This document shows positions 3,322-42,342 of a DNA stretch of 64,000 nt, piece by piece (the first letter of the stretch is position 1; each line of letters begins with the position of its first letter). The stretch is from Zhaonella formicivorans (GTDB lineage: Bacteria; Bacillota; DUOV01; Zhaonellaceae). The notes below the pieces were generated by a model. That model was not told where the DNA came from, did no database searches, and was given only the letters and a program-made list of their open reading frames with translations. The stretch is from the NCBI RefSeq assembly GCF_004353525.1, contig NZ_CP085524.1, positions 2,854,001 to 2,918,000 of the forward strand. Direction: 5' to 3'. A program made the translations under genes and the position numbers.

Positions 3322-3745
3322 AAACAACAATAAAGTAATACCTGATGGGGAAAAAACGGCGGCGGTTTTCAAGGGACAATATGTGGTATTAAAATAGATT
3401 GACGCACGGCTAAATGGATAATGCTTTTTATATCATACTTGTAATCTTCAGGCAAATGTATTATTTTAAATACAATAGGGTGGTATCCGAAACAGAGCCA
3501 TACCTGCAGATATGCCCATTATAATTCTATAGAAAAAATCGCTTGGATCTTTATGGACCGAGACGGCAATAAGGTAAGGGCTATTTGTGCCTTTTAAGGT
3601 CTCACGGTCAACGTGGGCCTTTTTGCTATTATTATTCATTGCTTGTATTCATTTATTATTTGCTTCTTAGGATTTCATTTTGCCATCCAAGCGACGGTAC
3701 ATTGCTGGATGGCTTTTTTATTTTTGAAGGTTAGGAGGAAACAAT
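3322..3745 (+). promoter_or_regulatory. panB leader with two tandem terminator-like hairpins
   Basis: 424 bp without a convincing gene. A TATAAT at 3520-3525 (poor -35) could start a leader RNA. Downstream is a short hairpin CTTGG/CCGAG around 3542-3561. A stem with one bulged U at 3598-3619 is followed by five T, and an 8-bp stem GCCATCCA/TGGATGGC at 3682-3713 is followed by a long T tract to 3725. AGGAGG for panB begins at 3733. Stacked terminators just before the operon suggest transcription attenuation. A structured RNA called the pan motif is known upstream of panB in several phyla, but I cannot match its consensus by eye. Confidence 0.45.
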
Positions 3746-7297: not shown

Positions 7298-8926
7298 ATG
7301 CCGACATGGGAAGAATTCTTAGGAAGAATTATCATTTTTGACGGTGCTATGGGCACCATGCTGCAGGCCGCGGGTCTGGATTTGGGTAGATGTCCCGAAC
7401 TGTGGAATCTGGAAAGACCGGAAATAATTCAGGATATCCACCGGGCCTACGTGGAGGCAGGGGCTATGGTAGTAGAAACAAACAGCTTCGGTGGAAATAC
7501 CATTAAACTCAAGGAATACGGCTTGGCAGACAAGACCCAGATGATTAATAGAAAGGCTGCGGAGCTGGCCAAAGAAGCCGTAGGGGGGAAGGCGCTGGTT
7601 GCAGGCTCCGTTGGCCCCACAGGCTTATTAATGGAACCCTATGGCACTGCTACTTTTGATGATTTGTATACAGCCTTTTTTGAGCAGATCCGCGGCTTGG
7701 CCACAGGCGGGGCTGACCTGATCTGCATTGAAACAATGTCTGATTTAGGGGAAATGCGGGCCGCTTTAATTGCAGCCAAGGCTGCCTGTAAGCTGCCTGT
7801 AATTTGTACCATGACTTTCGAGCAGGGCGGCAGCACCATCATGGGCATAAGCCCGGAAACGGCCGCTTATGTGCTCGCTTCTTTGGGAGCTGATGCTATA
7901 GGGGCTAACTGTTCTACCGGGCCGGAAGAATTGCTGCCGGTAATTAAACGCATGGCCCAAGCCAGCAGCCTGCCACTGATTGTCCAGCCTAACGCAGGTT
8001 TGCCTGTAATGCGGGAAGGCCGGGTCTGTTATGACCAAACCCCATCAAGCATGGCCGGTTTCGCCCCTAAATTTGTTGAAGCCGGGGTGCAGATTCTAGG
8101 CGGTTGCTGCGGCACCACCCCTGAGCATATTGCGGCTATTGCCCGGGCCGCTTCAGGTCTAACGCCCGGCATCAGGGAGATTAAAGCCAAGACGGTCTTA
8201 GTGGGAAGGCGGAAGCCGGTTATTATAGATGAATCCCCGGTGCCGGTGGTGATCGGCAGCAGAACCGGTAGTCCGTTTAGGGAGAATTTAACTGCTGCTT
8301 CCACTCTCGAACAAGTGGAAGCCGTTGTGCGGGATGCGTCACTGCAGGTGGAAGCAGGCGCTCAGATAGTAGATATCAATGTGCTTTTCGGTGGCAAGGA
8401 AGAACCGGAAACAATGCGGCAGGCGGTCCTCCAGCTGCAAAGTACCCTTGATGTGCCTGTGGCAATTGATTCCGCTAACCCTGAAGTCGTCCTGGCAGGG
8501 TTGAAGACGGCAAAAGGCAAAGCCCTCTTAAGTGCGGTCACGGGTGAAGAGAGCAACCTATCCCAGCTTTTACCTTTGGCAAAAAAATACGGCGCTGCCG
8601 TTTTGGCTACCGCCGTTGACTCCGGTGTGCGGGCTCAAAATGCTGCGGCAGACAGGACAAAAATAGCTGAAAAAATCGTGCAGAGAGCTAAAGGATGGGG
8701 CATAAACCGGAGTGAGTTAATTATCGACTGCCTGGCCGGCTGGTTTACCCGTGAACTGCCGGAAAAGGAGCTGACCGAGGTAAATGCTTTCTTGAAGGGG
8801 CAGCTGGGGGTTAAAACCTGTTTACGTCTCCCTTTTTCACTCCAGTCTTCCCTGCCCAAAATAGATGAAGAATTTTTACATGGCCTGCGCCGACAGGGTG
8901 TTGACATGATACTCAAGGAATTTTAA
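7298..8926 (+). CDS. Homocysteine S-methyltransferase / pterin-binding domain protein without B12 domain
   Basis: 542 residues with the first two modules of cobalamin-dependent methionine synthase. The homocysteine-binding barrel (about 1-300) shows DGAMGTMLQAAGLD and the zinc ligands in IGANCSTGPEE and GGCCGTTPEH. The pterin-binding barrel (about 318-542) shows DINVLFGGKEE and VAIDSANPEVV. The B12-binding and reactivation modules are absent, so a separate corrinoid protein would be needed. Expected role is methyl transfer from methyl-THF to homocysteine. ATG behind AGGGGAGG; the upstream gap is entirely repeat sequence. Confidence 0.85.
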   Translation: MPTWEEFLGRIIIFDGAMGTMLQAAGLDLGRCPELWNLERPEIIQDIHRAYVEAGAMVVETNSFGGNTIKLKEYGLADKTQMINRKAAELAKEAVGGKALVAGSVGPTGLLMEPYGTATFDDLYTAFFEQIRGLATGGADLICIETMSDLGEMRAALIAAKAACKLPVICTMTFEQGGSTIMGISPETAAYVLASLGADAIGANCSTGPEELLPVIKRMAQASSLPLIVQPNAGLPVMREGRVCYDQTPSSMAGFAPKFVEAGVQILGGCCGTTPEHIAAIARAASGLTPGIREIKAKTVLVGRRKPVIIDESPVPVVIGSRTGSPFRENLTAASTLEQVEAVVRDASLQVEAGAQIVDINVLFGGKEEPETMRQAVLQLQSTLDVPVAIDSANPEVVLAGLKTAKGKALLSAVTGEESNLSQLLPLAKKYGAAVLATAVDSGVRAQNAAADRTKIAEKIVQRAKGWGINRSELIIDCLAGWFTRELPEKELTEVNAFLKGQLGVKTCLRLPFSLQSSLPKIDEEFLHGLRRQGVDMILKEF

Positions 8927-38712: not shown

Positions 38713-39975
38713 ATGGAGCAGTTCAGGGTTCCGACGGAAGAAGAAATACGGGGCATAGTGGAGACCTATAAAATCGCTACCGGTACCAATTGTGCTGCCT
38801 TTAACCTGGAGGGAGAAATCATCACCGGCGGTGATTACGGGAAACGCTCCTCCTTTTGCCGGCTGGTGCAGCAGTACGATCAGAAAAAAAGCTGCAAAAA
38901 GTCTTATATTTACGGGGGGCTGCAGTCGGAAAAATTAGGCGATGCCTATATTTATTTTTGTCCCTATGGTTTAGTGAACTGGACGGTACCGGTGATGGGC
39001 AATAATGAGGTTGTATTTTTTCTGGTGGGCGGCCCCGTTTTACTCCATAAGGTTGACAGTCTGTTGGTTGAGGAAATTATTCGCCAGCTTCCTCAGCTCG
39101 GCACAAATTTTCACCATGTTGGAACGACCCTGAACGAACTGCAGGTATTTGACCCGGTGCGGGTAAACCATCTGGCCGGGCTGTTAATGCTGGCGGCCAA
39201 AAGCCTGAGAGCGACCGACGTGTTTTTGGAGGGCAAGCGTAACAGGGCTAATATCAATGCTAACGTGGCCAGGGTTATCCAGAATTTAAAAAAGGAGATA
39301 TTTACCCATAAGATCGGGGAGGGTGCAGGAAAACCATATCCCTTTGAAAGGGAAAAGGAGCTGATAGCTAAGGTTCGGCTGGGCGACAGGCAGGGTGCGA
39401 AAGAGATTTTAAACGATATTATCGGTTACATGTTTTTTTACAATAGATTTGAGCTTGTCAAGTTGGTTGCCGTCAGTTTGATGGTGGTTTTAGCACGGGC
39501 CGCCCTTGAGGTGGGCGTTGATTTGGAAATCCTTTTCGGAGCGGAATATTTGCAGCTCAGGAGGATTTTTGACTCTACTGATATTAACGAGCTTTCGGTG
39601 GAACTGACAAAAGCCATTGACTGGTTTATCGATTGTACTTTTCCTGTGGTTAATATTAAGAACCGCAACGTCATTTTTAAAGCCATGAGTTACATCCGGG
39701 AGAATTACAGCCAGATTTGTCTGGAGGCTGTAGCGGGGGAGGTGGGCCTGAGCGCCGCCTACTTCAGCAAATTGTTTAAAGAAGAAACGGGCAGGTCTTA
39801 TAGCGAATATTTAAACAGGGTAAGGATAGAAGCCAGCAAAGAACTTTTAAAAAAGGGACTGCCACTGGTGGAGATTGCACAAATGGTGGGATTTAACGAC
39901 CAGAGCTACTTTACGAATATCTTTAAAAAGTATGAAGGCGTTTCCCCCCGAAAATGGAAACAAAATGGGGACTGA
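38713..39975 (+). CDS. PocR-domain AraC-family transcriptional regulator
   Basis: 420 residues. The N-terminal PocR sensory domain (about 10-170) has FCRLVQQYDQKKSCKKS and CPYGLVNWTVPVM with conserved cysteines, a fold that binds small ligands such as short diols or methylated compounds. The C-terminal AraC-type double helix-turn-helix (about 320-415) shows AAYFSKLFKEETGRSYSEYLNRVRIEASKELL and YFTNIFKKYEGVSPRKWK. It stands 143 bp before mttC-mttB, so induction of that operon by a methylated amine is a reasonable inference. ATG behind GGAGGGGG. Confidence 0.85.
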   Translation: MEQFRVPTEEEIRGIVETYKIATGTNCAAFNLEGEIITGGDYGKRSSFCRLVQQYDQKKSCKKSYIYGGLQSEKLGDAYIYFCPYGLVNWTVPVMGNNEVVFFLVGGPVLLHKVDSLLVEEIIRQLPQLGTNFHHVGTTLNELQVFDPVRVNHLAGLLMLAAKSLRATDVFLEGKRNRANINANVARVIQNLKKEIFTHKIGEGAGKPYPFEREKELIAKVRLGDRQGAKEILNDIIGYMFFYNRFELVKLVAVSLMVVLARAALEVGVDLEILFGAEYLQLRRIFDSTDINELSVELTKAIDWFIDCTFPVVNIKNRNVIFKAMSYIRENYSQICLEAVAGEVGLSAAYFSKLFKEETGRSYSEYLNRVRIEASKELLKKGLPLVEIAQMVGFNDQSYFTNIFKKYEGVSPRKWKQNGD

Positions 39976-40118: not shown

Positions 40119-40904
40119 ATGGATATTTTGCGGGAAATTAGCGGTTACTTGGAAAATGGTGATGCCGGCAATGTCATCGCCAGCGTCCAAACCGCCTTGG
40201 ACAACGGATATCACCCGGAGGAAATCTTAAAAAGCGGCCTTTTATGCGGGATGGAGATAGTGGGAGAAAAATACAAAAACAACGAAATTTACATTCCTCA
40301 CGTGCTCCTTGCGGCAAGGGCGATGAATGCAGGGCTGGAGGTCCTAAGGCCCAGGCTGACAACGGCAACCGGCGGCTTTATAGGAGGAAGGGCATTAATC
40401 GGCACCGTTAAGGGCGATTTACATGACCTAGGCAAAAATATGGTTAAAGCAATGCTGGAGCGGGAAGGTTTTGAGGTTTACGACCTGGGCAGGGATGTTG
40501 GTGAAGAGGAATTTGTCAACGCAGTCAGGGAATACCGGCCCCATGTGTTAGGTATTTCTGCTACCATGACTACCACCATGGGCGGCATCAGGGATGTAAT
40601 TAAAGCTTTGGAAGGGGCGGGGCTGAGGAATGAGCTGCTGATCATGATTGGCGGCCTGCCTGTTACCGATGTTTTTGCGCAGGAAATCGGGGCGGATATC
40701 TGTTCAATTGACGCAGGCGAAGCTGCTTATCTTGCCAGAAGGCAATTTTTATCCGCCATACAAGCGGAAAAAACCAGGCGCGGGGAGGTGGTGGCAAACC
40801 CCAAAGGGGTGAAAAAAGCTGTTATTGCCGGAACTTTTACATTGAAATCGAAAGGAGGAGTGAATGAACATGGTAATAAGGGGTGCAAGGGCACACTACC
40901 CTAA
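40119..40904 (+). CDS. mttC: Trimethylamine corrinoid protein (MttC-like)
   Basis: 261 residues. An N-terminal helical cap domain (about 1-90) is followed by a Rossmann cobalamin domain with the cobalt-ligating histidine in GDLHDLGKNMVKAMLEREGFEVYDLG (His at about residue 102) and TMGGIRDVI. It carries the methyl group between MttB and a second methyltransferase not present here. Families normally end near residue 215; here about 45 extra residues run on over the mttB start, overlapping it by 41 bp. ATG 40119 is 12 bases from AGGAGG; TTG 40110 is only 3 away. Confidence 0.88.
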   Translation: MDILREISGYLENGDAGNVIASVQTALDNGYHPEEILKSGLLCGMEIVGEKYKNNEIYIPHVLLAARAMNAGLEVLRPRLTTATGGFIGGRALIGTVKGDLHDLGKNMVKAMLEREGFEVYDLGRDVGEEEFVNAVREYRPHVLGISATMTTTMGGIRDVIKALEGAGLRNELLIMIGGLPVTDVFAQEIGADICSIDAGEAAYLARRQFLSAIQAEKTRRGEVVANPKGVKKAVIAGTFTLKSKGGVNEHGNKGCKGTLP

Positions 40905-42342
40905 AAAAGAAGGATTTAGTATTAACATGTTTACGCAGGAGGAGCTCCAGCAAATTCATTTTGCCACCCTGGAGGTTTTATGGCAGGAAGGGGTTCATGT
41001 GGGATCCGAGGAAGCACTGGACATTTTTGAAGATGGCGGGGCGATTGTGGACCGCAGCAGTCACGTGGTGAGGATTCACCCTTATATGGTTGAAGAAGCT
41101 ATCAGGTCGGCCCCCAGCACGATCACTCTGGCCGGTCGCAACCCTAAAAACGATTGCGTTTTGGAAGGCAGCAGGGTTAATTTCACCACTTTTGGCGCCG
41201 GTGTCAAGATAGTTGATGCTTTTACAGGTGAACTGCGCAACACAACAAAGGCGGATGTGGCTGGGACAGCTTTAGTCGCCGATTATTTGGACGGCGTTGA
41301 CGTTTATTCCCATGCAGTGTCAGCCAGGGACTGCCCTAAGTCTTCGGTTGATCTTCATGAAGCGGAGGCCTTTTTGACCAATACCACCAAGCACTGCCAG
41401 CACATCGATTTAACCTGCGGCGCCAATGCCAAGAAATATATTGCAATGGCAGCAGCCATTGTCGGCGGAATGGATGAACTGCGTAAGCGGCCCATTATTT
41501 CGGCGCTTACATGTCCACAGAGCCCGCTTCAACTGCACCGTGAGAGCTGTGAGATTATTATTGAATTTGCCAGAGCAGGCATTCCGGTGAACGTCTTATC
41601 CATGGCCATGTCCGGCGCTACTACTCCCGTCACCATCGCCGGGACTTTAGTGGTCCATAACGCTGAAGTTTTAACAGGTATCGTATTATCCCAGTTGACA
41701 TGTAAAGGGGCGCCGGTAATCTACGGCAGTTCCACCACTACCTTTGACCTGCAGTATGCCACTGCTCCCGTAGGCTCGCCGGAACTGGGCATCTGCAATG
41801 CCGGTGTTGCTGCATTGGCCCAATTCTACCTGCTTCCCAGCTATGTAGCAGGTACCTAGGCTGACAGTAAAGTTTGTGATGTGCAAGCTGGCCATGAAAA
41901 AACCATAACTGCCATCTTACCAGCCTTGGCAGGAGCTAACTTGATTTACGGCATGGGCATGCTGGAGTTAGGGGTTACTTTTAGCTATGCTCAACTGGTT
42001 GTAGATAATGACATTGCGAAAATGGTAAAAAGAGTGGTAAGAGGTGTTGAGGTGAACGATGCCACCCTGGCAGTTGACCTGATTAAAAAAGTGGGTGGGG
42101 GCAGCGGAAAACATTACCTGACCGAAAGACACACCATTGACTATATGCATGCGGAACAATCCAGAGCAGGCATTTTTGACAGGAGGATGCGGCAGACTTG
42201 GGAAATTGAAGCCGGTGGCAAGGACTGCGCCCAGCGTGCTGCTGAGAAAGCCAGGGAAATTTTAAACGAGCATAAGCCGGAGCCCCTGGATGCCGATGTA
42301 AAAGCCCAGTTGCGCAAGATAGTAGAAAGCGCTGAAAAATAA
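40864..42342 (+). CDS. mttB: Trimethylamine methyltransferase MttB, with in-frame UAG read as pyrrolysine
   Basis: Transfers a methyl group from trimethylamine to the Co(I) corrinoid of MttC. The frame holds a single interruption, TAG at 41857-41859 (codon 332). The same frame then continues for 160 codons to a TAA, giving 492 residues, the known length of MttB. Before the TAG stands LLPSYVAGT, after it ADSKVCDVQAGHEKT, the family context of the pyrrolysine residue, followed by ALAGANLIYGMGMLELGVTF. The ATG follows AAAGGAGG. A shared stop at 41857 would remove the conserved C-terminal third, so readthrough is the better reading. Needs pylS, pylBCD and tRNA-Pyl, not in this window. A strong terminator follows. 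Confidence 0.93.

Follow-up and report, generated by a model that had tools for sequence, protein, structure and literature searches.

An mttB gene with an in-frame TAG codon and the pyrrolysine genes of Zhaonella formicivorans

In the stretch of Zhaonella formicivorans DNA analysed here (64,000 nucleotides, hereafter the window), the gene at 40864-42342 almost certainly (probability about 0.97) encodes a pyrrolysine-containing trimethylamine methyltransferase, MttB, whose incorporation of pyrrolysine, substrate and regulation we infer from the known families. This reading is based on the mttB gene itself, the conserved TAG codon within it, the presence of all pyl genes in the genome and the selection acting on both halves of the gene. 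With a stop codon serving as a sense codon, automatic annotation would split an enzyme which is key to methylamine use in this species. Moreover, a pyrrolysine species is added from an order of which three genomes were compared, two of them without the system.

The mttB gene, its TAG codon and its neighbours

The features of the locus, in window coordinates, are the following:

38713..39975, + strand: AraC-type regulator with a PocR sensory domain (PocR 85.9 bits, HTH_18 78.4 bits)
40119..40904, + strand: mttC-like cognate corrinoid protein with B12-binding_2 and B12-binding domains (start at TTG 40110 or ATG 40119)
40864..42342, + strand: mttB, trimethylamine--corrinoid protein Co-methyltransferase, 492 aa on decoding of the UAG as pyrrolysine (TIGR02369 profile match)
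41857..41859, + strand: in-frame TAG, predicted pyrrolysine site at codon 332, context YVAGT-O-ADSK (alignment of orthologues, paralogues and 7xcl)
41857..41956, + strand: stretch matching Rfam PYLIS_3 (85.1 bits)

The mttB frame runs from the ATG at 40864 to the TAA at 42340-42342 and, as the original prediction held, is otherwise continuous, with the TAG at 41857-41859 as its sole interruption and the 160 codons after it open to the TAA. The standard reading gives two fragments of 331 and 153 residues, the two broken genes that a plain caller had been expected to report. The read-through product matches NCBIfam TIGR02369 with 756.9 bits (cut-off 525) over the whole profile (positions 1-469 of 469), and Pfam MTTB with 324 bits. 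The nearest solved proteins are MttB 7xcl and 7xcm, in which the residue at codon 332 aligns with one printed as X and with lysine, respectively, a pattern that would be expected for a deposited non-standard residue.

An open frame beyond a stop is unremarkable on its own: in a sample of 464 kb of the genome, with mechanical gene calls, at least 60 open codons followed 9 of 96 genes ending in TAG, versus 18 of 238 ending in TAA or TGA. The eight other TAG-ended cases, considered as further pyrrolysine genes, were rejected as they look like ordinary neighbouring genes, the starts after their TAGs being, by eye, HemC-, UbiE-, phosphoglycerate mutase-, ABC transporter-, dihydrolipoamide dehydrogenase-, ATP synthase-, TatD- and RelE-like. 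The mttB read-through frame is taken as real because one protein family spans the TAG, the TAG is present at the same codon in all nine orthologues from other genomes, and the two halves of the gene are under like selection. The orthologues (63-78% identical) come from Desulfosporosinus, Thermincola, Peptococcaceae and Synergistaceae, as well as from further Firmicutes, and since a freely varying codon would not remain TAG across such distances, the codon is best regarded as a sense codon. In the comparison with the nearest orthologue (78% identical), nonsynonymous differences per site amount to 0.135 upstream of the TAG and 0.151 downstream, with synonymous sites near saturation (0.785 and 0.791, respectively); purifying selection is thus alike on both sides. 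The original prediction would have been undermined by close homologues with a sense codon at this place together with signs of decay; none of the nine orthologues carries a sense codon there, and the gene, with selection kept on both halves, shows no decay.

Within the genome, 19 genes of the MttB family were found, four of which (mttB at 40864 and three paralogues) carry one TAG each, always at the same aligned position, while in the other 15 this position is a codon for Cys, Ile, Leu, Met, Val or Thr. The four TAG-bearing genes and the orthologues form one clade (support 100/100), apart from the 15 sense-codon paralogues, so that the TAG is a property of one MttB branch. One dimethylamine methyltransferase gene, MtbB, also contains an in-frame TAG, and at one locus (L031:8907-12564) MtbB with its TAG, a corrinoid protein and a TAG-bearing mttB stand in a row, upstream of which lysine 2,3-aminomutase and CoA-transferase-like genes are found. 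The genome search yielded three RACo-type activator genes and no gene for the monomethylamine enzyme MtmB. The chemistry expected here, as established for these families, is the stepwise conversion of trimethylamine to dimethylamine and monomethylamine, with methyl transfer to corrinoid proteins.

A linked cognate corrinoid protein is encoded by the mttC-like gene directly upstream of mttB, the last 41 bp of which overlap mttB. It scores 192.7 bits against TIGR02370, slightly under the cut-off of 215.3, and shares only about 40% identity with the corrinoid proteins of the relatives, so that the mttB/corrinoid substrate pair is to be read as presumptive. The mttC-like frame (40119-40904) extends some 54 residues beyond its homology, into the start of mttB. 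As regards control, the position of the AraC/PocR-type gene makes it a likely local regulator of mttCB; a homologue lies near the mttB orthologue in one relative's locus (L047) and, in part, in another (L039). Elsewhere in the window (7298-8926), a 542-aa protein matches only the N-terminal half of MetH, with the homocysteine and pterin domains and without the B12 part.

Pyrrolysine genes and the reading of UAG

The host had been predicted to carry pyl genes elsewhere in its genome, and their absence would have spoken against pyrrolysine. A search of the genome (a single contig of 3,314,304 bases, 99% complete) recovered the full set. pylB (at about 698.4 kb), pylC and pylD span 698.4-701.6 kb, and the tRNA-Pyl gene (pylT), pylSc and pylSn are located at 2592.8-2594.2 kb on the opposite strand. 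All five proteins exceed the curated cut-offs (PylB 512.6, PylC 468.3, PylD 288.9, PylSc 389.0 and PylSn 143.2 bits), and PylSc is very close to the solved stand-alone PylSc 3dsq (433 bits over residues 11-287). The tRNA-Pyl beside pylSc, detected by ARAGORN, has a CUA anticodon, folds as a cloverleaf (-33.7 kcal/mol) and aligns with the tRNA-Pyl genes of nine relatives. Furthermore, all nine genomes with an mttB orthologue have pylS and pylB over the cut-off. Two other genomes of the host's order contain neither a pylS over the cut-off nor any MttB match, which might reflect either acquisition by transfer or loss from those two.

The proposed mechanism follows the known families. PylB, PylC and PylD would make pyrrolysine from lysine, and PylSc together with PylSn would charge it onto tRNA-Pyl, whose CUA anticodon would read the UAG at codon 332, so that the complete MttB of 492 residues would be made, carrying pyrrolysine at the active site. 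The enzyme would then pass a methyl group of trimethylamine on to the corrinoid protein whose gene directly precedes mttB. The pyrrolysine site proposed at codon 332 agrees with the conserved TAG, the 7xcl alignment and the full pyl set.

As an alternative, a structured element (PYLIS) in the mRNA downstream of the TAG was considered, which would direct insertion at the mttB UAG only. The stretch starting at the TAG does match Rfam PYLIS_3 with 85.1 bits, but it folds no better than its shuffles (z = +0.88), and in an alignment of 11 sequences few compensatory changes and a consensus energy of only -4.5 kcal/mol were obtained. A conserved RNA structure after the UAG was consequently rejected and such an element is considered very unlikely; the PYLIS_3 match is explained by protein-level coding conservation, with no sign of a site-specific signal.

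Still less probable is a product made without pyrrolysine, either by readthrough of the UAG by near-cognate tRNAs or by assembly of two separate fragments. An internal GTG at 41881 could serve as start for the downstream fragment, but the genome has a dedicated, pyrrolysine-type tRNA with a CUA anticodon, together with its synthetase, and codon 332 falls on the non-standard residue in the alignment with a solved MttB. Finally, a decaying mttB in which the TAG arose by nonsense mutation or through a sequencing error, as the two fragments of a plain gene caller might suggest, is ruled out for practical purposes by the shared position of the TAG in nine orthologues from distant genomes and three paralogues, by the like purifying selection on either side of it and by the complete pyl machinery.

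TAG as a stop codon and the layout of the pyl genes

TAG remains in use as an ordinary stop. The four examples given originally (panB, purR, glmU and prs) proved correct, and in the mechanical gene calls TAG ends 95 of the 333 sampled genes of at least 150 residues, mttB not counted (about 28%), so that both uses of the codon, alongside a full pyl set, are found in one cell as predicted. Upstream of panB, the window also contains an Rfam pan motif (3477-3570, 53.1 bits). With constant suppression of UAG, such a share of TAG stops would come at a cost to the cell, which counts against the pyrrolysine reading; for some TAG-ended genes, readthrough would produce a fusion with the gene that follows. 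Bacteria that use pyrrolysine, unlike methanogens, have been described as relying on regulation to cope, rather than on avoidance of the codon (PMC3941956), a pattern which Zhaonella formicivorans fits. UAG elsewhere would still terminate, most likely because charged tRNA-Pyl is scarce unless methylamines are available.

A single pyl cluster is usual, although not obligatory. All nine orthologue-bearing genomes have pylS and pylB on one contig, less than 9 kb apart, whereas in Zhaonella formicivorans the pylT-pylSc-pylSn unit (2.593 Mb) and pylBCD (0.698 Mb) are at least 1.4 Mb apart (1.89 Mb as measured on the linear contig, or 1.42 Mb on the assumption of a circular chromosome). This split is a mild oddity, and a literature search on unlinked pyl genes returned nothing specific. 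The tRNA/synthetase unit, far from the biosynthesis unit, has as neighbours an mttB with an in-frame TAG and the gene of a sigma-54-type regulator, and it is conceivable, albeit doubtful, that UAG decoding is gated by two independent switches; if true, this would explain why about 28% of genes still end in TAG. As a separate observation, the Desulfosporosinus genome UBA8487 has, in addition to two fuller pyl clusters, a stretch (L096:1253-3724) in which a tRNA-Pyl gene immediately precedes pylB and pylC and no pylS is seen.

Comparison with known systems

Among bacteria, anaerobic Firmicutes included, pyrrolysine use is a familiar phenomenon (PMC6778437, PMC7593587, PMC3941956). The dichloromethane fermenter DCMF, a Peptococcaceae anaerobe, has pyrrolysine and selenocysteine genes, a pyl gene cluster and 82 mttB, part of these paralogues with pyrrolysine (PMC6778437); Zhaonella formicivorans likewise has numerous mttB copies, some of which contain a probable pyrrolysine codon, but only 19 in number and with a split pyl set. 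A second expanded code may also be used by its genome: a formate dehydrogenase alpha subunit gene about 2 kb upstream of the window (genome 2849323-2852004; L029:11323-14004) contains one in-frame TGA at codon 352 (context CARL-U-HSS), a probable selenocysteine site, and its read-through product matches TIGR01591 with 897 bits.

In bacteria, the pyrrolysyl synthetase is split into PylSc and PylSn (PMC3941956). All six parts of the bacterial cassette (pylT, pylSc, pylB, pylC, pylD and pylSn), including the split synthetase, are shared by Zhaonella formicivorans, which departs from it in the distance between the two units. With the pyrrolysine MttB proteins (7xcl/7xcm/7xcn, and those of Desulfosporosinus and Thermincola), the mttB product shares whole-length homology and the position and context of the TAG; in Desulfosporosinus and Thermincola, as here, pyl genes are found in the genome and a corrinoid gene nearby. 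This mttB differs from the known pyrrolysine genes by ordinary divergence only and, with its TAG, is an ordinary, well-explained case of a known phenomenon, in a genome whose pyl layout is modestly unusual.
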